A stretch of 23,094 nucleotides of DNA from a virus, in the IMG/VR virus record IMGVR_UViG_3300009155_000287, positions 1-23,094 of that record; one strand, 5' to 3'. Made by a program: the position numbers and the translations under genes. Shown piece after piece: positions 1,429-23,094 of this stretch; the stretch's first letter is position 1, and each line of letters starts with the position of its first letter. Under the pieces are notes generated by a model. It did not search any database. It saw only the letters and a list, made by a program, of their open reading frames with translations, and was not told the origin of the DNA.

Positions 1429-1453
1429 GGGCGGCTTCGGTCGCCCTTTTTTT
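1429..1453 (+). terminator. Rho-independent terminator after gp32
   Basis: The hairpin spans 1429-1446: 5' arm GGGCGGC, a UUCG tetraloop closed by C-G, 3' arm GGTCGCCC (one G-U pair), followed by seven T (1447-1453). This is a textbook intrinsic terminator. It starts 12 nt after the gp32 stop, and its T-run overlaps the stop codon (1452-1454) of the convergent minus-strand gene. Read on the minus strand the hairpin is followed only by TTTCCC, so it is probably weak in that direction. Confidence 0.92.
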
Positions 1454-3629
1454 ATACTGTTGCCGCTTGTTTATAATCGATCGGCGCAAATCCCATACGA
1501 GTTAAGTAATATTGAATGCTGGCGTTATCTCCAGTCGACTCAGCGATTTGCATTTGAGAAGAACTCGCAGAAGCCTTTGTATCTGTTGAACTCGACTTTA
1601 TCGTAGCAGCTGCAGATTCTATAATTTTTGAATCGACAATCGCATTTGTTTTTTCTCTTGCTGCTTTTCCTATATCACTTGACATTGTGCTATTAAAGCT
1701 ATTTTGAAGTTGTGATCCAGTAGTAATACTCATAGGTCCTAAAGCAGCACTTAGAATATTTCCAACTGCCTTGATCGCGCCCTCCGTTAAATCAACGCCG
1801 GCTCCAATCGCTTGTTCCAAAGCGCTATCTCCGGTTCCTCCTAATGGCGCTCCTCCCACTGCTCCTTTACCATATGGTTTTTGCGGGTTATATCTTCTTA
1901 TCTGCAATCCATTTTTAGCATTGTTATCTAAAAAATATCTCTTAACTTTATTGCTAGTGTTACCGGCTATGAGCTCGACTTTATTTCCTTGTCTTACGCC
2001 TGTTGCGATACCTACATGGCCACCACCAACATCTGGGCCTAAACCACGAGTTTGAATAACAATGTCGCCTTCTTGAACAGAAGATACTGGAACATTATCT
2101 CCCCATTTTTGAAAGCTATTGGCTACATTAGTTGCGCCTTTTAATCCAGCTTGAGCGAGCGTAGAGTTTACAAATGCCGAGCACCATTTTTCATTTCGCG
2201 GATCTAATCCGACTCCACCTTGTCTTAAATAGTTGCCTATTTGTGATTCGCCAATACCAACTTGGCTAGCAGCCAGTCGTGTAGCTTTACTCAATGATTC
2301 ATTAGAAGTTGCGCTAGGAGAAGATCCACCCGTTTGAGTTGCTTGTGCCGGCGCCGTAGATTTTGTACCATTAGCTGGTGCCGTAGTAGCTGGAGTAGCT
2401 GCAGGAGTTGCAGAAGAATTCGCAGGAGTTGCAGAAGCAGGCGCTGCAGAAGAAGGAGTTGTAGCTGCAGAAGAAGAAGGCGTTACAGCGGTTGCAGAAG
2501 AAGCGCGAGTAGCATCAGAACCCGAAGATCCTGTTGCTCCACCAGAAGCGCCGGACTTTGAAGAAGATTTAGGTCCTGGAAAAGCAGTTAAAATTTCTTC
2601 TGGTGAATTCGGCCCGCTTGAAGCTTTGTTACCGGAAGCAACAGATTGTTTTGGACCTGAAAATGATGTGGAATCTTCTGATTGATCGCTGGTTTGTTGC
2701 ATTTTACCAGCAGGTTGTGTTACGTCTTTTGCAGAAGAACCAGTTTCAGTCGATGATTTTTCTGCTGCCCTTGACTCTGGAGTTCCTACAATATTGCGTA
2801 GGCCGTCATTAAAAACTCCAGCTATTCCTGATGCAAAATCATAAACGCCTTTTGCAAAGCTTACAATAGCATTAAAAGTTTCTTTTACCGGATCGAGTTG
2901 AGATATAAAAAGAGCTCCAGCAGCAACGGCTGCACCTAATAATATACCACTGGATTCTTTATTTGCTTTTTCTACTTCAGCATCGACTTTTTCTTGTTCT
3001 AAATTAGGTGTAGCATCTGATTTCGTTGCACCTTGTTCTATCGATTGTTCTTTTGCAGACGCATTCTGTGAATTAGATAATGCCATATCATTGGCTAGTC
3101 TTTGCTTTAAATATCCATCAATGACAGATAGCTTCTCTATCATCTGAACGATAGGAGAATTAATTTTTATACTTGGCGCAGGAAGTTGACCTCCTCCAGA
3201 AGTAGCTTTTATTTTTTGTTTTCCGGCTTGTCCGGTTGCTCCCATTCCTGCAAAGACTTGTCCAGCAGCAGCTTTCTTCGCCCAACTTTCGTAAAGCTTT
3301 TCTTCTTCGGTCGTACCTTCTATAATACCTTGATAAGCAGCTTCAATCAGTTTACTAAAGGCAGGATTGGCAGCGTCTTTAGTTTTCTTGTCGATCCATA
3401 CGTTGCTATTCAGATCCCATACGTATTCTGTTTTACCGAGTTTTATAACAGGTCGAGAAGGATCAATACGAACACGCTTCTTCTTGCCTTCAGAAAGAGA
3501 ATTCTCAGATTGAAGATTATTCAGAAGCTTAAGTAAGCCTTCGGGCGCTTTTATTTTTGTCTTTTGATCTACCCATCCATCACCAGTTTTAATGAAGGTT
3601 TGGCCGCCAATCGTAACCGGTTCAGCCAT
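1452..3629 (-). CDS. Tape-measure-like tail protein with CHAP/NlpC-type peptidoglycan hydrolase domain
   Basis: 725 aa. Two imperfect ~35-residue repeats open the protein (about 5-40 and 60-97, each with a GWVDQKTK / VWIDKKTK core). Then come a helical region, a short hydrophobic segment (about 229-243), a long Ala/Ser/Thr/Pro linker (about 285-440) and a hydrolase domain (about 450-580) with KWCSAFVN (Cys483), GGGHVGIATG (His538) and IAGNTSN (Asn556). That is a Cys-His-Asn triad arrangement typical of CHAP/NlpC-like phage endolysins (TIGR02594-like pattern, from memory). Residues 616-649 (with LGPMSITTGSQLQNSFN) and 128-153 match modules in the upstream gene, so the two are paralogous in part. 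It starts at an ATG overlapping the upstream stop (TAATG). Position after gp26/gp51 and domain style suggest a tube-lumen or tape-measure-associated protein that digests the wall during injection. The role is inferred; the hydrolase domain is well supported. Confidence 0.75.
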   Translation of the reverse strand: MAEPVTIGGQTFIKTGDGWVDQKTKIKAPEGLLKLLNNLQSENSLSEGKKKRVRIDPSRPVIKLGKTEYVWDLNSNVWIDKKTKDAANPAFSKLIEAAYQGIIEGTTEEEKLYESWAKKAAAGQVFAGMGATGQAGKQKIKATSGGGQLPAPSIKINSPIVQMIEKLSVIDGYLKQRLANDMALSNSQNASAKEQSIEQGATKSDATPNLEQEKVDAEVEKANKESSGILLGAAVAAGALFISQLDPVKETFNAIVSFAKGVYDFASGIAGVFNDGLRNIVGTPESRAAEKSSTETGSSAKDVTQPAGKMQQTSDQSEDSTSFSGPKQSVASGNKASSGPNSPEEILTAFPGPKSSSKSGASGGATGSSGSDATRASSATAVTPSSSAATTPSSAAPASATPANSSATPAATPATTAPANGTKSTAPAQATQTGGSSPSATSNESLSKATRLAASQVGIGESQIGNYLRQGGVGLDPRNEKWCSAFVNSTLAQAGLKGATNVANSFQKWGDNVPVSSVQEGDIVIQTRGLGPDVGGGHVGIATGVRQGNKVELIAGNTSNKVKRYFLDNNAKNGLQIRRYNPQKPYGKGAVGGAPLGGTGDSALEQAIGAGVDLTEGAIKAVGNILSAALGPMSITTGSQLQNSFNSTMSSDIGKAAREKTNAIVDSKIIESAAATIKSSSTDTKASASSSQMQIAESTGDNASIQYYLTRMGFAPIDYKQAATV
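2310..2777 (-). repeat. Low-complexity Ala/Ser/Thr/Pro linker with GCAGAAG-type DNA repeats
   Basis: Residues about 285-440 of the CHAP-domain protein are almost entirely A, S, T, P, G, with runs such as TPSSSAATTPSSAAPASATP. On the plus strand this appears as recurrent GCAGAAG/GCAGGAG units, densest at about 2400-2500. It looks like a flexible spacer between the helical N-terminal part and the catalytic domain. Long antisense frames across it arise from this base composition and are not genes. Confidence 0.75.
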
Positions 3630-5872
3630 TATGCAATTACCAATTTTTGATGTTGCATATATTTTTCCATAAGCAAGCTATCGCTTGGGTAATTCGGATC
3701 AAAGTGATCTCGCTTACTATCGTTTGAAGATCCGGGTTTTCCAATAGGAGATATACTTGCAGATGCTGGTTCGGTTGCTGCTTTAGTAGAATCTAATTTC
3801 CCTAAATCAACAGTGTTTTGTAATTCTGTAGATATTTTAGAAATTTTGGCAGCTGCCGCAGATTCTGATTTTACAGGAGTTTGCATATTATTATTAAATT
3901 TATTAGATAACTGCGAACCGGTTGTAAGACTCATCTCTCCAAGACTAGCTTGAAGCACTTTACCGGCGCTTTCAATTGCACCTTTACCTAAATCAGCAAG
4001 AGAACCCATAACACCGGCTGATTGTTGCGAACTTGCTCCTTGCGAATCATAAGAAGAAGCCGAATATTTTCCACCTGTATAATCTGCCATCCATTTTGCT
4101 TGATATGCTTGTGGAGTCATACCATTGTTTACAGCAAGAGCTTTTGCCGACATCTTTCCTTGTATATTGCCGGTATACCAGGCAAGTGGAACTTTTGAAA
4201 CATCGCCGCCGGCTTTTTGTAATATCTCTTCAATGTATTTTGCTGCAACAGCATCTTGAATAGGAGGAGGAGCAAGATAAGCACTACTATATTCTGTTCC
4301 TATATTATACTTTTTGGTTAATCCTCTCCAAGATTCATTTGTAAAGGCATAAGCGCCAGATGCAGTTTGACCTGGCATACCATTAGGGTGTGGAATACCA
4401 TAATTGCCACCAGACTCGCGTGTTCTGATAGTAGCAAGGATTTTTTCTACATCCGCAGGAATTGAAGGAAGATTTTCCATTTGAGCTGCAGAAGCTGTCG
4501 GTGCACCCGCAATATTGCCTGAACTTGATACTGGGGTTGCATCAGGTGTTGCGGCTGTAGATACAGGCGATGCATTTGCTTTCTCGGCATCAGTTGCTTC
4601 TTGTGCTCTTGCCTCAGCGGTTTCTGAGAATTCTACCCAAATTTGATATAAATCCCACAGCAACCATGCAGCAAAACCCGCTGCAATTAGCTTTGTTACT
4701 ATCGCTGAGACGGCTGCGACAGGTATACCTACACCGGTAGAAGCTACAGCAGCTTCAGCAGCAGTAGTTGCAGCCGCAGTTGCTGCGACAGCAGCGATTT
4801 CAGCAAGAAGCCTTTGCTGGGCTTTTTTTTCTAAATATCTTAAAAAGAGATTCCACAATCTATTTTTGCCGTATGCTGAAAAAGCAAAACGTATAAAAGC
4901 TTTCTCTGCAAACCATGCACTAAATCTTGCAGCTTGTCTTGCGACAAATCCAGACACAGCACCGGCCGCCGCTTTTATGCCTTTATATGCAAATTTAATA
5001 GCGGTGACAGGAGCTATAGCTACTGCTGCGAGTGGAAAATTACTGACTATCGATGAAAGCAGTCCTTGACCACCTTCTCTTTGTCCTGTTTTTTCATTAA
5101 ATGTCCCATAAGCATCTTCATATATTTTCCCGCCAATTAATCCGAGAAGTGCTCCTCTCCACCCAAATGTACTTCCTATTGCAGCTCCTGCGATTGCTGT
5201 TGTGCCCATTGCTGCCGCAAAATTTTGAACGAAACCAATGATAGGAGATATCTTATCAGTAAAAGCAGACCAATTCGATTTTAGTTCTTCTAATTGTGAT
5301 GTGTCTAAATTTCCAAGGGCGGCGAGGCCAAGCGTACCAAGCAAACCTGCCCCGATTAAAAGTTTTCCAACAGTTCCAGCTCTTTCTTTGGCGTTATCCT
5401 TTATCGCGTCGAGTTTTTCTCCTAAATTACTAAATGGGTTTTGAAATGAGCTTCCGCCAGATTCGATCGAAGCTTCTTTTTCTGCCTGCGCTTGTTGTTG
5501 AAATGCTCTTCTTTCAAACTGAAGTTGTTGCTCAAGAGTTTTTTCAATCGAAGAAAGATAGTTGACTGCTACTAATAACAGTTTTTCTGTAGGCATATTT
5601 GGATTGACTGCCGGACGTGCAGATTTTTTAGGAGAAGCGGGAATCGTGCCCGAACCAGACACTTTCGACTTTCCGGCTTGACCTGCCATACCAACACCGT
5701 TAATAACAGTTACTGGTGCAGGAGAAAGAGCTCCTTCGAGAGCTCCTCCTACCGCTTCTCCAACGCCGCGCACGGCATTGCCAGCAGCTTCTACTACTTT
5801 TCCTGCTAGACCGAAAGTACCTTCGATGGTCGATTTTACTGCAGCAGAAACCGGTGTTTCAAATAACGCCAT
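3629..5872 (-). CDS. Tape-measure-like tail protein with SLT/lysozyme-type transglycosylase domain
   Basis: 747 aa. Order of parts: an N-terminal Ala/Gly-rich helical segment (1-60), a short motif GVGMAGQAGKSK (59-70) shared with the next gene, a Gln/Glu-rich coiled-coil-like stretch (105-135), several hydrophobic segments (about 168-187, 210-248, 280-310, 383-412), a linker, and a lytic-transglycosylase-like domain at about 475-600. That domain has RTRESGGNY (Glu486 the likely catalytic acid), SGAYAF (505-510) and PLAWYTGN (562-569), the usual motif order of SLT/goose-type lysozymes. Residues 633-663 (LGEMSLTTGSQLSNKFNNNM) repeat a module of the downstream gene. Directly following the gp26/gp51 chaperone-type genes, with alternating hydrophobic and helical content and suitable length, it is the best tape-measure candidate (T4 gp29 is 590 aa). 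It could instead be an internal pilot or injection protein. Confidence 0.75.
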   Translation of the reverse strand: MALFETPVSAAVKSTIEGTFGLAGKVVEAAGNAVRGVGEAVGGALEGALSPAPVTVINGVGMAGQAGKSKVSGSGTIPASPKKSARPAVNPNMPTEKLLLVAVNYLSSIEKTLEQQLQFERRAFQQQAQAEKEASIESGGSSFQNPFSNLGEKLDAIKDNAKERAGTVGKLLIGAGLLGTLGLAALGNLDTSQLEELKSNWSAFTDKISPIIGFVQNFAAAMGTTAIAGAAIGSTFGWRGALLGLIGGKIYEDAYGTFNEKTGQREGGQGLLSSIVSNFPLAAVAIAPVTAIKFAYKGIKAAAGAVSGFVARQAARFSAWFAEKAFIRFAFSAYGKNRLWNLFLRYLEKKAQQRLLAEIAAVAATAAATTAAEAAVASTGVGIPVAAVSAIVTKLIAAGFAAWLLWDLYQIWVEFSETAEARAQEATDAEKANASPVSTAATPDATPVSSSGNIAGAPTASAAQMENLPSIPADVEKILATIRTRESGGNYGIPHPNGMPGQTASGAYAFTNESWRGLTKKYNIGTEYSSAYLAPPPIQDAVAAKYIEEILQKAGGDVSKVPLAWYTGNIQGKMSAKALAVNNGMTPQAYQAKWMADYTGGKYSASSYDSQGASSQQSAGVMGSLADLGKGAIESAGKVLQASLGEMSLTTGSQLSNKFNNNMQTPVKSESAAAAKISKISTELQNTVDLGKLDSTKAATEPASASISPIGKPGSSNDSKRDHFDPNYPSDSLLMEKYMQHQKLVIA

Positions 5873-6054
5873 TACTTTCTTCTACTCTCTATTTCTTGTC
5901 TCTGTTCTTCAAGATGAGCCATTAACAAATCAACGTAGAGATCTCTTTCATAAGGTATTAAATTTTCAATCTCAGTGATCGAATATTTGTGATGTTGAGC
6001 CAAAGCAAAGATCATGCTATAGTAGTTCTGAAGCGAGTTATGACTCAGCGCCAC
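5872..6054 (-). CDS. 51: gp51-like baseplate hub assembly / tail assembly chaperone (small ORF)
   Basis: 60 aa if initiated at the GTG at 6054, which overlaps the end of gp26 by 10 nt. Core sequence SMIFALAQHHKYSITEIENL then IPYERDLYVDLL is the pattern of small phage tail-assembly chaperones (gp51-type in T4-likes). There is no convincing Shine-Dalgarno before the GTG, and the next in-frame Met is residue 14. The frame lies -1 relative to gp26 and is entered precisely by slippage on the T TTT TTT heptamer at 6063-6057, so the product may be made mainly as a gp26-gp51 fusion of about 294 aa. It ends in a TAATG overlap with the tape-measure-like gene, as expected for a chaperone adjacent to its client. 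Confidence 0.75.
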   Translation of the reverse strand: MALSHNSLQNYYSMIFALAQHHKYSITEIENLIPYERDLYVDLLMAHLEEQRQEIESRRK

Positions 6055-6755
6055 ATAAAAAAATCTTTGAGATTCGTTAACTCGATACTCCTATCATTAC
6101 CAAGTTCATTTGTGTATTCAATCTTATGATATAACTTCGGCATCTTCTCAAAGAATTGCCGAATTAAATCGAAAGAATTGACTGGCAATTGATCGAGAAA
6201 CTCTTCGAGTTCTTTGTCTGTATATTCAGAAGCAGGATAGATTTCATCTTCTGTTACGATCGTATCAATACAATTGATGATAAAGAATGTCATGAGATCA
6301 ACTTCATTATCAAACTGTGTGATTTTATCAGTGATGCTCGAGCTTGGATACTTCATAATCATTGCAATATTATCAGACAGTTTGATAGTCGAATCAACAC
6401 CTTCAGGCATTTCGACCTCAATTGTATCGAGGTTTAATTCAAAGTCATAGACTTTATCATCTTCGTTATCGCGATATGATAGCTTAACAATGTTGTTGAC
6501 AGATTTGGCGCGAAGCTTTAAGAACAAGTATTCAAGATCGAAAGTCGTCAGCTTATCAACATCAAAATCTTCGTCTTGCACACAGAGTCTTAAGATCTGC
6601 TTGATAGCCCTGATCACATCAGTGTCTTCTCCGCCTTGTTGAGAGATGAGTAAGATCTTTTCTTCTTTCACCAAGAATGGTCGAAAGAGAATCTTTTTCT
6701 TTGAAGAGGGAATCGTCACGTCAAAGAGTGGTTGGTCGATTTTTGGCAAAGGCAT
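6045..6755 (-). CDS. 26: gp26-like baseplate hub subunit
   Basis: 236 aa (T4 gp26 is 208 aa). It matches the T4-like 'baseplate hub protein' pattern: N-terminal LPKIDQPLFDVTIPSSKKKI, then FRPFLVKEEKILLIS, a helical EDTDVIRAIKQILRLC, and LTTFDLEYLFLKLRAKS at about 88-104. In T4, genes 26 and 51 are adjacent and act in hub assembly, and that adjacency is kept here. The start at 6755 has a strong AGGAGA (6768-6763) 7 nt upstream, the only good Shine-Dalgarno I find inside this operon, so expression is partly independent of the upstream genes. The last codons overlap gp51 and contain the candidate frameshift site. Acidic, soluble, no membrane segment. Confidence 0.82.
   Translation of the reverse strand: MPLPKIDQPLFDVTIPSSKKKILFRPFLVKEEKILLISQQGGEDTDVIRAIKQILRLCVQDEDFDVDKLTTFDLEYLFLKLRAKSVNNIVKLSYRDNEDDKVYDFELNLDTIEVEMPEGVDSTIKLSDNIAMIMKYPSSSITDKITQFDNEVDLMTFFIINCIDTIVTEDEIYPASEYTDKELEEFLDQLPVNSFDLIRQFFEKMPKLYHKIEYTNELGNDRSIELTNLKDFFMWR
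6057..6063 (-). other. Candidate -1 ribosomal frameshift site (T TTT TTT)
   Basis: In the gp26 frame the minus strand reads GAT TTT TTT ATG TGG CGC TGA. The heptamer T TTT TTT has the X XXY YYZ form. A -1 shift continues as TAT GTG GCG CTG AGT, exactly the gp51 frame, which is open upstream to a TAG at 6093-6091. A small stem GAGT(CATA)ACTC at 6046-6035 starts 10 nt downstream and could stimulate weakly. Seven T could also give polymerase slippage. Confidence 0.6.
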
Positions 6756-15819: not shown

Positions 15820-17696
15820 TGGCAGATTCAAGCATCGTCCTTACACAGTTAGACTTCGATTCCTATAAGGATTCGTTAAAAACATTTCTGAAATCACAAG
15901 ATCGATTTAAAGATTACGACTTCGACGGAAGCAACCTTTCGGTTCTTCTTGATGTGCTTTCGTATAACACATATCAAAACGCGTTCTATCTCAACATGAT
16001 CAGCAACGAGATGTTTCTCGATTCTGCGAAGTTACGCGACAGCGTCATTTCTCATGCCAAAGAATTAAACTATCTTCCGAGATCGTTTCGATCTTCGTCG
16101 GCTGTCATTCAATTGGTGATTACTTCGACAGATGCGGCAAAGAGATCGATCGTGATTCCAAAAGGTACATCGTTTACTTCGCGTGTCGATGATTTTACTT
16201 ATAACTTTAGTACTACTGAAAACTATGTGATTACTAACCGAACTCCATCGGGATCAAACTTTGTATATGAGAGCGAACCGATTCGAATATACGAAGGTAG
16301 CTATTTGAGTGATACTTACACAGTCAATTATAGTAATCCGCTTGTCTATAAAATTAGTAATAAGCGTGTCGATCTTGAAAGTGTATTAGTCACAGTCTTT
16401 GAAGATAACGGCACGTCTGTTCAGACTTATAAGAGAGCGACATCTCTTTTTGGTCACGATGAAAATGCAAAAGTCTTCTTCTTACAGCCAGGAATTGGTG
16501 ACACATACGAAGTCGTCTTTGGTGACGGAGTCGTTGGAAGAAAGCCAAAGAACAACTCTGCGTGTATCATTGAATATCGATCATGCAACGGCGAACTTCC
16601 GAACGGCGCATTCAGGTTTATTAATACAGCGCGTATCGATAACGAAACAAATGTTGTCATTGAAACTATTACTGCATCCGCGGATGGTGCAGTTGCAGAA
16701 GATCTCAGCTCAATTAAGTACAACGCTCCTCGTGCATTCACTACACAAGAACGTGCTGTGACTTCTGAAGACTATGAGAACTTGCTGAAAGCAAACTTTC
16801 CTGAAATCAATGCGGTGGTTGCATATGGTGGAGAAGATGCATCTCCTCCGCAATACGGCCGAATTTTCTTATCGATCGATCTTGATGAAGTTGATGGTCT
16901 TCCAAAGATTAAAGAAGCAGAATATAAAAGGTTCTTAAGATCTCGCTCTTCTGTGGCGATTGAGCCAATCTTTGTTTCTCCGGATTACACGTATCTATAT
17001 GTCAATACAAATATCAAGTACAATATTAACCTCACAGGTTTAAATCCGGAAGATATTCGTACTTTGGTAATTGACTCGATTCTGAATCACGCTTCTATCA
17101 ATCTGAATAACTTTGGTCGTACTCTTCGCTACTCGAAATTTATTCGTGACGTCGATACTGCAGAAACAAGCATTATTAGTAACGAAACAAAGATAGAACT
17201 TGTGAAGTATCTGACGCCAGTATTAAGTACGACTGTCACTGGAAGTGCCACAACTACTTCTGGTTCTCTCGTATCATTGGCAACTTCAGGTGTCGTATCA
17301 TCTGGTCAAAATGTAACGATCGACTTTAAAAATGCTTTGCAGAATGATATTCCAGGCAAAGGTTCAGAGTATCTTACCGGTGATATTCATGTCGTAAGCT
17401 CTTCGACATTCACATATAATGGTTTGCCAAATTGTCGTCTTGAAGATGACGGCGACGGCATCATGCGTATCGTCAATACTTCTGGAACAAATAACAGAAC
17501 TATTCTCTCCGTTGGAACTGTCGACTATGATACTGGTGTTATTCGAATCAATAACTTTAATATCACGAATTACACCGGCACTTCTCTTAAAATCTATGCT
17601 AAACCACGTACGCTTGATATCACTTCAACTCAGAACGTGATACTCAATATTCTTGAAAATGACGTCGACGTCTCAATTGAACAGATCAGAGAATAA
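15819..17696 (+). CDS. 6: gp6 baseplate wedge subunit (baseplate J-like)
   Basis: 625 aa (T4 gp6 is 660). gp6 dimers make the continuous iris ring of the wedge. N-terminal LDFDSYKDSLKTFLKSQDRF then YDFDGSNLSVLLDVLSYNTY (33-52) and QNAFYLNMISNEMFLDSAKL (53-72) are the standard start of gp6/J-like wedge proteins, followed by RDSVISHAKELNYLPRS, IPKGTSF and VVFGDGVVGRKP (the conserved 'GDG..G..P' turn). RAFTTQERAVTSEDYENLLK, preceding NFPEINAVVAYGGED, matches the J-like region where gp6-type proteins are most conserved. The C-terminal ~200 residues are beta-rich. Overlaps both neighbours by 1 nt, as in T4 where 25/6 and 6/7 proteins form one heterotrimeric wedge unit. Confidence 0.93.
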   Translation: MADSSIVLTQLDFDSYKDSLKTFLKSQDRFKDYDFDGSNLSVLLDVLSYNTYQNAFYLNMISNEMFLDSAKLRDSVISHAKELNYLPRSFRSSSAVIQLVITSTDAAKRSIVIPKGTSFTSRVDDFTYNFSTTENYVITNRTPSGSNFVYESEPIRIYEGSYLSDTYTVNYSNPLVYKISNKRVDLESVLVTVFEDNGTSVQTYKRATSLFGHDENAKVFFLQPGIGDTYEVVFGDGVVGRKPKNNSACIIEYRSCNGELPNGAFRFINTARIDNETNVVIETITASADGAVAEDLSSIKYNAPRAFTTQERAVTSEDYENLLKANFPEINAVVAYGGEDASPPQYGRIFLSIDLDEVDGLPKIKEAEYKRFLRSRSSVAIEPIFVSPDYTYLYVNTNIKYNINLTGLNPEDIRTLVIDSILNHASINLNNFGRTLRYSKFIRDVDTAETSIISNETKIELVKYLTPVLSTTVTGSATTTSGSLVSLATSGVVSSGQNVTIDFKNALQNDIPGKGSEYLTGDIHVVSSSTFTYNGLPNCRLEDDGDGIMRIVNTSGTNNRTILSVGTVDYDTGVIRINNFNITNYTGTSLKIYAKPRTLDITSTQNVILNILENDVDVSIEQIRE

Positions 17697-20600
17697 TGAA
17701 GAATATCGAAAAAAGAATATCTCCGTTAATTCAGAGTCAATTTCCTTCTTTTTATCAAGAAGAAGGTGAGAACTTTATTGCGTTTGTGAAAGCCTACTAT
17801 GAATGGCTTGAAAATTCTGGAACATATGTTAACTATTCTGGCAATACTGTTACTCAGTATATCGCTTCGAATAATGATATTATAGAAGTCACTGCTGATC
17901 AACTTGCTAACTCAACATATATGTCGAGTATCACACGATATCAACCAATTGATGCAAATCCGCTTTACCATGCTCGAAGGCTGCCAGACTATCGCGACAT
18001 TGATAGTACGACAGATGATTTTATCGTTCACTTCAAAGAGAAGTATCTAAAGAACATTCAGTTCGATACCGCCACGAATAAGAAACTTCTTGTCAAAAAC
18101 TCTCTCGATTTGTATCGTGCCAAGGGCACTGAGCGCGCAGTCGATCTCTTCTTTAAACTTGTATATGGTACGGCAGCAGAAGTTCGATATCCTGCAGAGA
18201 AGATCTTTCGCTTATCAGACGGAGTGTACGAAAAACCAGAATATCTTGAAATGGGATATTCGATCTATAACATTGATTATGTCGGTAAGCAAGTTGTTGG
18301 CCAACTTTCAGGAGCCAAAGCCTTCGTCGAGAAGTACATTCGGAGAAGAGTCGGAAAAGGCTTCGTCAACCTACTTTATATTTCTGGAAGACAAGGTGAT
18401 TTTCGTAACGGCGAAGTCATTGGTCTCAACATTAATAATCAACCTGTATTTGATATTACCAAAAGATCGAAGTTAATCGGTTCTGTCAAAAGAGTCACAG
18501 TTCAAACTCGAGGCAGAGATTTTGCCGTCGGAGATATAGTCAGATTTACAAACAGCGATCGAGGCCTTGGTGGTTTGGCAAGAGTAGAATCGATTAGTTC
18601 ACAAACAGGACTCGTGGATTTTATTTTTATCGATGGTGGTTATGGATACACACTCGACACCGAATCGATCGTCTCTGAAAAAGTATTAAATCTGAATGAA
18701 GTGACTGCAGACTTTACTTCAGAAAGTTACTATCGTCTCTTCGAACGCGGTGTTCAACCTGTAGTGAATATCGGTTATAGTTCGGCATCTTCAGATGTTG
18801 CTGTCGGAAACACCATATATCGCTACGCCGCAAATGGTATGCTTGCCGCTGAAGGCAGAATACTCGAAGTATCGACTTCTTCAAATACTGCAGGGTTTAT
18901 CTCTGTATCTCATACTTCAGGAGTCTTTGTTCCATCTGCTAACTATAGCACAGGAAGCAACAGTACGAATGGAATAACTTTTACGGCGAATACACTCACA
19001 GACAAGTCGATGTCTGGTAAGTTCATGAACATACCGACAGATTATGCTGTGATTATTACTGCACCTTCTGCCACATTCAATGTCGGTGATGTCGTACAAC
19101 AACAGAATGCAGGATATATTACGGCTTCTGGTACAGTGGCAAATGTCATTACACTTGAAAGTTCAGTGCAACTTACTCTTACCGATGCTCGCGGCGCTTT
19201 TAAGAATAGTAAGCGCATGGCGGATTGGGATTACAAAGTCGGCACAGGCACGATCACTACATCTACTACGAGTAATGTAGTCACTGGAACCTCTACAGCT
19301 TTTAATAACAACTATATTAATTCGACTCTTTATATCACTAGTAACGTGTCAATTGGTAATGTGGCGAGCGTAACCAATTCAACTTCTCTGATACTTTCTA
19401 CGAATGCTGCAGCCAACGCGACCGCAAATGTTCATAACTACGGTTTAACGTATAAGCTTATCAATCAAACTAATAATCAAGTCTTCGCAAACGTAAGTTA
19501 CGTGAATCTGAATGCTGGTTTATATGACATCAAGAAGCAGGTTCATGTTATCGAATTTGATGAATGTTCTTCGAATAACGTTACCTTTGCAAATAATATC
19601 TACATCTACAATAGCGCGAATGTGATTGTTGCTGAAGGTTCTGTGATCACTGCTAACTATGCTTCTGCATCAAATACGGGAACATTAACGTTTATCTCGC
19701 GTAAGGGATACTGGAACGAAACCGATACAGTATACACTACCTCAACTCCACCGATCTCTGTATCATTTAACGCGAATTCCTCGGTAACTAATGCGACAGA
19801 TGAGATTGCAATCACATCTGCAAATACTCTTTTTTCAGTTAATGACAGCGTTCTTTATACTGTTGCTGCCGGTAATACAGCACTAACAAACTTAGTTTCA
19901 GGTACTCGCTACTTTATTAAAACTTCAAATTCATCTGCAGTGACGCTTTCTAATACCGTCGGCGGATCTACTATCAATCTAACAAAAGGTTTAACTGAAG
20001 CAGGACACTCGCTAAACAGTGCAGATAACTTCAAGATCACATCTTATTCACTTGATATTACCGGCGGCGATTACGTTCGTTCATTCCCTTCAAAGATCAT
20101 TGCGCCGCTTTCAAATACTACCGCAAACATTTCATCAATTAGTTTTGGCACAGGCGCTGGGTTTGGTGTAGGTACGATCGGCGAAACAGAAGTCATCTTC
20201 ATCGGTACAGATCTGATTGCTGCAAATAGCCAAGATACACTCGACTATAGTCGTCTTCAACTCTCTGTGACAGCGAATACTGGGTTCGATGAAGGTCAAA
20301 GAGTATATCAACAGATCCGCAAGGTTTCATTTAATCCTTCGACTGCTGCAAATGCAACGACAGGGTTTATTACTATTACAAATGCTAATACTTACTATAT
20401 TGCAGGCGATCGAGTTACTTATGAAGTAGCAACAGGTAATACAGTAATCAGTGGACTCGAAAGCGGTAAACCTTATTACGTCGCATTCTCAAATACCACT
20501 GGACTCATTCTTTCGAGTCCTGCGAACAAGTATATTCATATCAATAGCACGAGTTTTCCTGGAGAAAGCTTTGCTAATACATCGTTCAATATTCCTGCCT

Positions 20601-23094
20601 TCGCTGCAACGCGAACAAATGAATCTGGTCACTTCTTGTATAAGACTGCACATGGTACACTCTATGACGTGACTGGAACGAATCTTCTTATCAAAGATCC
20701 TATTCGCGACTTTGGTTTTACAAATACGACGTCTGTTCCAGCAAACGGTAATATCATAGTATACGGCAATTCTGTTGTGAATACTGCAATTACAGCAGTA
20801 GCAGGATTACCAACTCTCGCTCAAGCAAATCAGGTGTTCGCTTCGCAATTTATCTCTTCAGACGCATTTGGCTTTCCTAAAAATCCTGAAGGCAATTTCC
20901 TCGATATACTATATTCGTGTTTGACATTTGGTAGATTTGAAATCGGTATCATTGGATCACTCAATCAAGTCAATCCAGGTGAAGATTATGATGTCGATCC
21001 TTTTGTGCTCGCACACCAACCATATATTGCAGGATTCGATCGTAAAGACTTTGTGATTACGTTTGAAAATGCAACGAAAAACTTTCTTCCTGGAGAAATA
21101 GTCAATCAATCACAAGCAAATCTCAAGTTCTATGATCTCAAGGTTTCTTCTGGTGCATATAGCAATACGTATGATGCCAAGACATTTACTGTACAATCTC
21201 AATTTGAAGCCAACAGTTCATCAGACTTTATCTTCTATCGAGACATCTCTACTACATTTAATGCCACTGATGAAGTCAACTCGAATACAGATTTCATTGA
21301 GATCGATGGAAATGTATATGCTGCAAATAACTTAGTTCGTTACTTTACTGAGCCAGGCAATACTGCACTAACAGGACTCAGCAATAATACTTTCTATTAT
21401 GTTTTAACAGCGAATTCGACAGGAGTTATTCTTACTACTGACGCTGGAAACACTGCAGCCAAAGTCAATATTACTCAAAGCTCAAATGTAGCAGAATTTA
21501 ACTCGAATACTAACGTACAGAATAGTAATGATTTCATTAGCATTGCCTCTGCAAATAGTAAATTTGCAAACGGTGGTCAAGTTAGATACGTAATCTCATC
21601 GAACACTACTGTTGTTCCTGGCTTAGAAGCAGAAGCGCTCTATTATGTTCGCTACGCAAACAGCACCGGATTGGCTCTTTCGATTACAGCTGGCGGAGCC
21701 AACGTAGATTTGACCGCAGCAAATCCTGGAAGCAATGGACACTTCTTGAGATATTACAATGCCGATATGGGTGGTCATAATCTACGTAACTTTACAAATG
21801 AGTTTGGTAATGGACAAATTGTTCAATACAAAATTCCGAATGGTAATACTGCGATCGGCGGTTTGACAGCAAATGCCGTTTACTATATTGTTTCTGCGAA
21901 TAACGTAGGATTTAAGTTGTCTTCTACTCTCAGCGGTTCTGCGATCAATATCACTGCCAACTCGACCGGTGGAGAGTCACACACGATTGCAACTCTTCCA
22001 GGTTATCTGCCAAAAGATAAGCTATTCCAAACGAATAGCACGAGTGGCATTGTTAATTCTTTCGTCTCTTCAGTTTTTTCCAATACCACTGGCGGTTATA
22101 TCAGAGTCACTGGAAATACTGCTCCGCTTGTCAATAATGCAATTATCTCTTCATATACTGTACCGACTGCGAATGGTCTCGTTTCAAGCGTCAGTCTCTT
22201 TGAAATTGTATCGACTGCCAAAGCCATCGTCAAGTCAAGTAATAGTAGTCATATGCTTGCAAAGAGAATTACATTCGAAAACACTTGGTTGTCAAGCGAT
22301 ACAATGATCGGAGAAGTTTCTGGTGCCGAAGCAAACGTAATAGGTGCGACTGAAGATTTATCAGTATTATATCCGATCGGATTAAATGCAGAAATCACAG
22401 CAAATGTTGTGACCGGAGACGGAGAAGTGACTGCACTACAAGTGCTCGATTCAGGTTTTGCATATTCGAATGCTGAAATTGTCGACTTTGTTTCAGAAGA
22501 TAATTTGAGAGCTGGCACTGCAAAGATCACCCTTGACGGTCATGGCATTGGTATCGGATATTATCGAAGCTCGAAAGGATTCTTGTCTGACGATATCTAC
22601 ATTCATGATAACGACTATTACCAAGAGTATTCTTATGAGATCCTCTCAAAGATCTCAGTAGACAGATACTCTGATATGTTTAAGAAAGTGATGCACGTCG
22701 CCGGAACGAAGTTCTTCGGATCTGCATTGATCGTAGAAGAAGCAAATGTTGCACTCGCAGTGTCAAACACTTCGACAGGAGAAGAAGTACAGTTCAATTC
22801 GAACGATGATGTTTCGACACCGAATGATACGATTGAAACAGATATCGAAGATGTGAGCTTTAAGTTTAATGTAGCGAATGTCGGCAATGATACTGATCTA
22901 ATATCGTTAGGGACTAATCCTTATTATACCACATTCCCATTAAATGTAAATGATTATTTACAATATACTACACTAGAAGCAAATCCAATCGGAGTAGGAA
23001 GTGCTTCGAGTCTATCGAATAATAGCTATTATTACGTAGTGCTTGCGAATACAACAGGTATCAAGATCTCTGAAACACAAGGCGGAGATGCTCT
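17696..23094 (+). CDS. 7: gp7-like giant baseplate wedge protein with tandem repeat domains (3' truncated by window)
   Basis: The ATG at 17696 overlaps the gp6 stop (TAATG). Frame 2 stays open to the window end, at least 1,799 aa (T4 gp7 is 1,032). The N-terminal ~200 residues (FPSFYQEEGENFIAFVKAYY; DYRDIDSTTDDF; DLYRAKGTERAVDLFFKLVY at 138-157; KIFRLSDG) resemble the C-terminal region of T4 gp7 with its DFYSTKGIEASYKFLFKVLY motif (recalled), so this looks like the gp7 wedge-binding part fused to a long new body. 'VGD..R' and 'SGA' modules follow, then Asn/Ser/Thr-rich beta repeats with cores like GNTALTGLSNNTFYYVLTAN and NSTGVILTTDAG. A non-repeat block near 22555-22740 (GYYRSSKGFLSDDIYIHDND, then YYQEYSYEI and MFKKVMHVAGTKFFG) resembles an attachment domain common in marine T4-like baseplate proteins. 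Third in the 25-6-7 order of wedge genes. The 3' end and full length are unknown. Confidence 0.8.
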   Translation, partial: MKNIEKRISPLIQSQFPSFYQEEGENFIAFVKAYYEWLENSGTYVNYSGNTVTQYIASNNDIIEVTADQLANSTYMSSITRYQPIDANPLYHARRLPDYRDIDSTTDDFIVHFKEKYLKNIQFDTATNKKLLVKNSLDLYRAKGTERAVDLFFKLVYGTAAEVRYPAEKIFRLSDGVYEKPEYLEMGYSIYNIDYVGKQVVGQLSGAKAFVEKYIRRRVGKGFVNLLYISGRQGDFRNGEVIGLNINNQPVFDITKRSKLIGSVKRVTVQTRGRDFAVGDIVRFTNSDRGLGGLARVESISSQTGLVDFIFIDGGYGYTLDTESIVSEKVLNLNEVTADFTSESYYRLFERGVQPVVNIGYSSASSDVAVGNTIYRYAANGMLAAEGRILEVSTSSNTAGFISVSHTSGVFVPSANYSTGSNSTNGITFTANTLTDKSMSGKFMNIPTDYAVIITAPSATFNVGDVVQQQNAGYITASGTVANVITLESSVQLTLTDARGAFKNSKRMADWDYKVGTGTITTSTTSNVVTGTSTAFNNNYINSTLYITSNVSIGNVASVTNSTSLILSTNAAANATANVHNYGLTYKLINQTNNQVFANVSYVNLNAGLYDIKKQVHVIEFDECSSNNVTFANNIYIYNSANVIVAEGSVITANYASASNTGTLTFISRKGYWNETDTVYTTSTPPISVSFNANSSVTNATDEIAITSANTLFSVNDSVLYTVAAGNTALTNLVSGTRYFIKTSNSSAVTLSNTVGGSTINLTKGLTEAGHSLNSADNFKITSYSLDITGGDYVRSFPSKIIAPLSNTTANISSISFGTGAGFGVGTIGETEVIFIGTDLIAANSQDTLDYSRLQLSVTANTGFDEGQRVYQQIRKVSFNPSTAANATTGFITITNANTYYIAGDRVTYEVATGNTVISGLESGKPYYVAFSNTTGLILSSPANKYIHINSTSFPGESFANTSFNIPAFAATRTNESGHFLYKTAHGTLYDVTGTNLLIKDPIRDFGFTNTTSVPANGNIIVYGNSVVNTAITAVAGLPTLAQANQVFASQFISSDAFGFPKNPEGNFLDILYSCLTFGRFEIGIIGSLNQVNPGEDYDVDPFVLAHQPYIAGFDRKDFVITFENATKNFLPGEIVNQSQANLKFYDLKVSSGAYSNTYDAKTFTVQSQFEANSSSDFIFYRDISTTFNATDEVNSNTDFIEIDGNVYAANNLVRYFTEPGNTALTGLSNNTFYYVLTANSTGVILTTDAGNTAAKVNITQSSNVAEFNSNTNVQNSNDFISIASANSKFANGGQVRYVISSNTTVVPGLEAEALYYVRYANSTGLALSITAGGANVDLTAANPGSNGHFLRYYNADMGGHNLRNFTNEFGNGQIVQYKIPNGNTAIGGLTANAVYYIVSANNVGFKLSSTLSGSAINITANSTGGESHTIATLPGYLPKDKLFQTNSTSGIVNSFVSSVFSNTTGGYIRVTGNTAPLVNNAIISSYTVPTANGLVSSVSLFEIVSTAKAIVKSSNSSHMLAKRITFENTWLSSDTMIGEVSGAEANVIGATEDLSVLYPIGLNAEITANVVTGDGEVTALQVLDSGFAYSNAEIVDFVSEDNLRAGTAKITLDGHGIGIGYYRSSKGFLSDDIYIHDNDYYQEYSYEILSKISVDRYSDMFKKVMHVAGTKFFGSALIVEEANVALAVSNTSTGEEVQFNSNDDVSTPNDTIETDIEDVSFKFNVANVGNDTDLISLGTNPYYTTFPLNVNDYLQYTTLEANPIGVGSASSLSNNSYYYVVLANTTGIKISETQGGDA
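19790..20643 (+). repeat. Protein-level tandem repeats R1-R2 in the gp7-like protein
   Basis: R1 (about 19790-20016) and R2 (about 20351-20643), roughly 75-98 residues each. Shared pattern: NATDEIAIT/ITNANTYYIAGD, YTVAAGNTALTNL or YEVATGNTVISGL, then G-x-x-Y-(F/Y)-(I/V), S-N-(S/T)-(S/T), and an end in GHSL or GHFLY. Similarity is clear in the protein but diverged in DNA, so the copies are old. Confidence 0.75.
21260..21992 (+). repeat. Protein-level tandem repeats R3-R5 in the gp7-like protein
   Basis: Three back-to-back units of about 80 residues: R3 (21260-21500; GNTALTGLSNNTFYYVLTAN), R4 (21501-21755; VVPGLEAEALYYVRYANSTG) and R5 (21756-21992; GNTAIGGLTANAVYYIVSAN). Each runs N-x-F/Y...V-x-Y, a GNTA-x-x-G-L turn, a YYV strand, an A-N-(S/N)-T/V-G turn, an L-S strand and a G-x-x-(I/V)-(N/D)-(I/L)-T end. 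Confidence 0.8.
22882..23094 (+). repeat. Sixth repeat unit of the gp7-like protein, cut by the window end
   Basis: NDTDLISLG..., LNVNDYLQYTT, SSLSNNSYYYVVLANTTGIK and ISETQGGDA fit the R3-R5 pattern. It lies about 890 nt after R5, beyond a non-repeat block, so the repeat series probably continues past the window. Confidence 0.65.

Follow-up and report, generated by a model that had tools for sequence, protein, structure and literature searches.

The products of genes 26 and 51 are reportedly the tail-assembly chaperones of T4-like phages, and frameshifting to produce the long chaperone is said to be apparently conserved in several T4-like groups; T4 itself is said to use 26 and 51 as separate genes. 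The lambda pair gpG/gpGT is alike in consisting of a short chaperone and a -1 frameshifted long form; its slip heptamer and its protein family differ from those of the locus described here. According to PMC12846349 (citing Vladimirov et al. 2022), poly-T -1 signals occur in the genes for the short chaperone, TAC-N, of T4-like phages, and PMC10885494 (citing the same work) describes some T4-like phages in which frameshifting is replaced by a short gene plus a longer, fused one. The gp26/gp51 locus analysed here, in a window of 23,094 nucleotides (IMG/VR virus record IMGVR_UViG_3300009155_000287), has the same two genes and a poly-T -1 site at the TAC-N end like these T4-like chaperones (Vladimirov et al.), but its clade differs in the absence of the Shine-Dalgarno-like (SD-like) upstream element of many relatives and in a tail of four codons after the slip. 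Ribosomes very probably slip back one base near the gp26 end, as in lambda. Because frameshifting has already been proposed for the T4-like 26/51 chaperones, the site is a well-supported new example of a known mechanism; likewise, the unification of the T4 and lambda systems, which the first-pass annotation had put forward, is not new (Vladimirov et al. 2022, as cited in PMC10885494 and PMC12846349). The site of the window itself is not named in the titles and abstract openings that literature searches returned.

The coordinates and frame relations first given for this locus, i.e., the heptamer, gp51 in the -1 frame and a predicted fusion of 233 + 61 = 294 aa, were confirmed in the sequence (Table 1). 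The gp26 gene ends with CTC AAA GAT TTT TTT ATG TGG CGC TGA, and the -1 reading is TTT TTT TAT GTG GCG CTG AGT CAT, which stays open from FFYVALSH to SRRK and ends at a TAA (5874-5872) that overlaps the ATG of the next gene as TAATG. The frame is also open upstream across the slip, as had been claimed: the closing TAG lies at a distance of ten codons in this arrangement, and among the letters read between it and the slip site there is no ATG, GTG or TTG in the -1 frame.

Table 1. Features of the gp26/gp51 locus (window coordinates)
Feature	Position	Strand	Basis
gp26 homologue, proposed short chaperone TAC-N, 236 aa	6045..6755	-	PF12322, phrog_150, AlphaFold2 model
Slippery heptamer T TTT TTT	6057..6063	-	Sequence; conservation in relatives
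-1 ORF, slip site through gp51 (63 codons + TAA), proposed TAC-C of the 294-aa fusion	5872..6063	-	Open frame; phrog_634; alignment
gp26 stop TGA, fourth codon past the heptamer	6045..6047	-	Sequence
Upstream TAG closing the -1 frame	6091..6093	-	Sequence
GTG, only near-normal gp51 start close to the slip; the next is an ATG at codon 16	6052..6054	-	SD pairing -0.9 kcal/mol
Region with a fold more stable than that of synonymous recodings, possible stimulator	6004..6054	-	p = 0.013, 150 synonymous controls
Next gene, 747 aa, in tape-measure position	3629..5872	-	Position; ATG overlaps the gp51 stop

The heptamer alone is weak evidence, because the window is not short of in-frame X XXY YYZ heptamers: the 17 window ORFs scanned contain 28 of them in 7611 codons, and T TTT TTT is also found in frame in two other genes. 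The gp26 heptamer is the sole one in these ORFs that lies at most 10 codons from a gene end; the second nearest is at 31 codons. A single site of this kind is suggestive only, and gains its significance from being conserved in relatives. Relatives were collected by scanning viral contigs with the window gp26 (best 80 of 151 relatives taken, 69-100% identity), with the HTVC008M (11 relatives), S-PM2 (best 80 of 276) and Cr30 (2) queries, and with a ten-sequence alignment (best 80 of at least 595 relatives). With 22 named phage regions added before counting, the collection came to 275 loci, 3 of which stop before the site.

Comparison of the gp26 3' ends, which the first-pass annotation had proposed as a check, bore out its reading, the heptamer and the -1 placement of gp51 being kept even in very distant relatives: among the matches listed, 266 of the 272 untruncated loci have T TTT TT(T/C/G) within the last ten gp26 codons together with gp51 in the -1 frame (T TTT TTT in 133, T TTT TTC in 132 and T TTT TTG in 1). 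Of the 267 sequences with the heptamer, the window among them, 253 have a -1 frame that reaches a stop, 252 of these with at least 50 codons; in the other 14 it runs off the contig. The gp51 part is conserved at the protein level and could be aligned from FF onward in 73 sequences. The gp26 stop follows two codons past the slip in most relatives; in three contigs (L216, L223, L267) it comes nine codons past the heptamer, leaving a longer stretch that is read in both frames.

Seven named records were added later; the heptamer is present in S-BM3, P-RSM1 and ACG-2014e and absent from four Tevenvirinae, which brings the total to 21 of 29 named phage records, a small hand-picked part of the 1130 phage records with a gp26 match, many of which are coliphages. 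The carriers include Kyanoviridae, Pelagibacter phage HTVC008M, Caulobacter phage Cr30, Sinorhizobium phages phiM12 and phiM9, Desulfovibrio phage 7757, Stenotrophomonas phage Mendera, and Straboviridae that their records do not place in Tevenvirinae (AS-yj, PX29, Ci1, ValKK3). The lambda-type scheme of a short and a long chaperone is thus usual among the sampled relatives, T4 and the other Tevenvirinae examined being the exception. Some records miss or truncate gp51 in their annotation: S-BM3, P-RSM1 and ACG-2014e have no annotated gp51 in the region shown, the -1 ORF being open over the 30 codons read, and the annotated gp51 of HTVC008M starts inside the conserved domain.

Loss of the heptamer in relatives had been named beforehand as evidence against frameshifting; apart from its retention in nearly all loci, it was found to be lost in two lineages. 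Six loci are without a counted heptamer. In Pseudomonas phage Cygsa01 and Vibrio phage K361, gp26 ends in SIFT and SLFK, respectively, with TAATG overlaps, no heptamer and gp51 directly downstream. These two phages may lack the long form, and since both lost the heptamer with gp51 still directly downstream, the fusion would be dispensable in some lineages. In the tree they group with Bakedbeans, which carries the heptamer (the sites lie at 1890-1945 of L090 for Cygsa01 and 1825-1880 of L271 for K361). Two metagenome contigs, L037 and L098, have an early stop in gp26 and keep the heptamer further on. A third sequence, L076, is a member of the window clade and has an intact heptamer and a stop after 27 gp51 codons. 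With the slip site intact in all three, these stops could reflect either sequencing errors or broken genes.

The remaining two loci, T4 and Acinetobacter phage W16, carry gp51 on the other strand. T4 belongs to a set of five Tevenvirinae (T4, Melville, AS6, GRNsp7 and CF1; T4 and GRNsp7 are of one genus) that serve as a natural control: all five have retained GLKEFF at the end of gp26 and encode its last residues as GAR TTC TTY, i.e., in non-slippery codons. All five also have a separate baseplate gene at the gp51 position, upstream and on the other strand, which carries a gp51 or hub assembly annotation in T4, Melville and CF1 and just a baseplate one in AS6 and GRNsp7. T4 gp26 aligns to the gp26 profile with residues 6-207 of its 208 (E 2.7e-14); T4 differs from the window in having 26 and 51 as separate genes on opposite strands and no slip site. 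T4 gp51 aligns to the gp26 profile with residues 12-187 (E 7e-4, probability 26) and to the gp51 domain with residues 200-244 (E 9e-5, probability 59), both alignments being of a single T4 sequence and weak taken alone. T4 gp51 thus weakly resembles an in-frame N+C long form fixed as a gene of its own.

The principal alternative to frameshifting is translational coupling, in which gp51 would be a separate product of ribosomes that, having finished gp26, restart at GTG 6054 (or, in relatives, at an ATG near the stop), with the T run reflecting no more than a Phe-Phe constraint. The GTG, at gp51 codon 3, is found in 70 of 70 complete members of the window clade, which were chosen by the ATGTGG motif that contains it. 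Possible starts were surveyed in 90 non-redundant sequences (<70% identity) picked from the loci with heptamer and complete gp51 among the matches listed: some start is present in -1 codons 2-19 in 57 of them, and an ATG overlapping the stop (TAATG or TGATG) in 14. These 57 starts, the GTG of the window clade and the missing SD-like element of the window count against frameshifting, and the TAATG overlaps of Cygsa01 and K361, found without a heptamer, are in keeping with coupling. However, the other 33 of the 90 have no ATG, GTG or TTG in codons 2-19. Within the four-codon subtype of the window, 9 of 15 have no start before codon 14; L203 has none before codon 20, L234 none before codon 31, and L250 and L258, sisters of the ATGTGG clade in the tree (support 99/96), none before codons 34-35. 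In many relatives frameshifting is therefore the one plausible way to full-length gp51, since the stretch without starts is itself conserved at the protein level. The starts that do exist are poorly equipped: for the earliest gp51 start available, SD pairing has a median of -0.9 kcal/mol in the 57 loci, compared to -5.95 for gp26, and the GTG of the window reaches the value in Table 1 against -7.3 for gp26, in agreement with the first-pass annotation, which had noted the GTG start and the lack of a good Shine-Dalgarno sequence. A Phe-Phe constraint is also at odds with the five Tevenvirinae, which retain FF in non-slippery codons. Translational coupling therefore appears improbable, and with negligible SD pairing at the GTG and relatives without starts, frameshifting is more likely to be the route to gp51 in the window itself.

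A second alternative moves the slip to transcription: RNA polymerase would slip on the T run, and mRNAs one base longer or shorter would encode the fusion. Homopolymers of seven T in the window and eight in HTVC008M would suit such a process. A run of six T is short for efficient bacterial transcriptional slippage, however, and 47 of the 90 non-redundant loci have just six T followed by C; moreover, the run always keeps the X XXY YYZ codon phase, and the SD-like signals and the downstream folding accord with slippage of the ribosome. The polymerase-based explanation is thus very improbable. A third alternative, that the shift in frame does nothing, being a relic or a mistake of assembly, and that gp51 can be dispensed with, has next to no probability: T runs are error-prone and early stops occur in L037, L098 and L076, but the same frame relation recurs in separately deposited phage records as well as in the listed contigs, and gp51 is conserved as a protein.

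Ribosomal frameshifting thus stands as the supported reading, on the conserved heptamer with gp51 in the -1 frame, the relatives without starts and the non-slippery Tevenvirinae. In E. coli, slippage on U_UUU_UUU is weaker than on A_AAA_AAG (Atkins 2016). Upstream, 55 of the 90 sequences show SD-like pairing of -5 kcal/mol or stronger within the 24 nt that precede the slip codons, 51 of them with an 8-mer ending 5-10 nt before the heptamer, and GGAGG lies exactly 10 nt before it in 17. The pairing averages -5.5 versus -4.1 for synonymous recodings, with 12 of 90 sequences passing p 0.05 and 44 passing p 0.25; the LEGL peptide might account for part of this signal. In the window it is only -2.5 kcal/mol, and among the sequences with a four-codon stop (window included) 1 of 15 reaches -5. 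The median is -2.2 in this subtype compared to -5.8 in the others (rank test 2e-7, uncorrected for kinship, 14 of the 15 belonging to one clade of 18).

Downstream, codons 3-20 fold more stably than synonymous recodings, with a mean z of -2.25 in the four-codon subtype (8 of 15 at p 0.05) and -1.72 in the others (31 of 75). Control stretches passed the same threshold in 4, 14 and 4 of 90 sequences (three stretches of gp26), in 2 of 15 and 6 of 75 (gp51 codons 20-37), and in 0 of 15 and 9 of 75 (codons 36-53); the corresponding region of the window is listed in Table 1. No single stem common to the relatives was seen: clades fold differently, and the exact fold varies even within the window clade. 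The GAGT/ACTC stem that had been pointed out is present in the window, but as a conserved 4-bp element it was rejected, being paired in 68.8% of cells without compensatory change among 28 distinct clade sequences. A 5-bp UGUGG/UCAYA stem is formed in all 28 and another register is paired in 96.4% of cells, with no double change in either among these sequences. As a stimulator the UGUGG/UCAYA stem is unproved, because it shows no double change and starts one base past the heptamer; its sequence is under codon constraint from both frames as well.

Tentatively, these observations might be read together as follows, a possibility we rate somewhat below an even chance: the site of the relatives would be a three-part signal, with an SD-like element about 10 nt before the slip, a T-run heptamer and a clade-specific downstream fold, and would have been re-tooled in the window lineage, where the SD-like element would be gone, a run of seven T with A after it fixed and the gp26 stop shifted to four codons past the slip, with slippage relying on the run and downstream folding alone. 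If true, the relatives form a natural series for measuring the trade-off between frameshift stimulators, and natural variants with and without the SD-like element would make the contribution of each stimulator measurable.

The gp26 protein matches PF12322 (T4_baseplate; 8.4e-55, 186 bits, cut-off 24.5) and phrog_150 (baseplate hub; 6e-60), and the gp51 residues from the GTG on match phrog_634 (baseplate hub assembly catalyst; 1.3e-23). An AlphaFold2 model of gp26 built from 73 sequences has a pLDDT of 92.6, and that of gp51 reaches a middling 73.9. With residues 1-95 of gp26, the best of 999 re-aligned chains were 3fgx (RBSTP2171; Z 8.1), 2ob9 (HK97 tail assembly chaperone; 7.3) and 3klu (YqbN; 7.0), the fourth falling to 2.5, where a Z under 8 can reflect a common arrangement. 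Given this clean gap in Z and the nature of 3fgx and 3klu, which we take to be chaperone-like phage proteins, the N-terminal part of gp26 is likely a TAC-N domain by its predicted structure. Despite the shared predicted fold, gp26 differs from the three proteins in some 140 further residues, and no sequence match beyond chance level was found to any solved chain. Foldseek alone ranked 2ob9 third with the gp26 model (E 0.58, probability 0.60) and returned no hit with E < 0.001, and profiles of gp26 and gp51 gave no E < 0.04 against solved-structure sequences, the best falling on unrelated molecules.

Taken together, we consider it highly probable, judging from sequence comparison, that gp26 and gp51 form one expression unit for a -1 frameshifted tail-assembly chaperone. 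That slippage occurs, how efficient it is and what each product does are inferred: most ribosomes would read gp26 to its stop, yielding the 236-aa short form (TAC-N), and a minority would slip back one base on T TTT TTT, which encodes Phe-Phe in either frame, bypass the stop four codons further along and translate gp51 as well, giving a 294-aa TAC-NC whose junction reads ...LKDFFYVALSH.... Roles can be proposed from the analogous lambda gpG/gpGT: coating of the tape measure protein would fall to the short form, and the long form would use its C-terminal domain to recruit the protein of the tail tube. The G/GT-type interpretation put forward in the first-pass annotation thus gains support from the predicted gp26 fold and from the weak N+C-like character of T4 gp51.

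The same annotation had placed tape-measure genes next to gp26/gp51. From their position the next genes are likely tape measures, and in Cr30, phiM12 and HTVC008M one small gene is annotated between gp51 and the tape measure; similarity in sequence was not found by BLAST between the 747-aa protein and a 259-aa part of the annotated Cr30 tape measure, the portion compared. Two consecutive long genes on the minus strand occupy this position (1452-3629 and 3629-5872) and give weak peptidoglycan-hydrolase-like matches, CHAP at 1.6e-5 (just under the Pfam cut-off) and transglycosylase-like at 0.024 (below the cut-off). Near their C-termini they have a common motif, LGEMSLTTGSQLSNKFN / LGPMSITTGSQLQNSFN, as if duplicated. 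On the plus strand, an ORF at 17696-23092 of at least 1799 aa runs off the window and contains repeated stretches of the type YYVxxANSTGxxLS.
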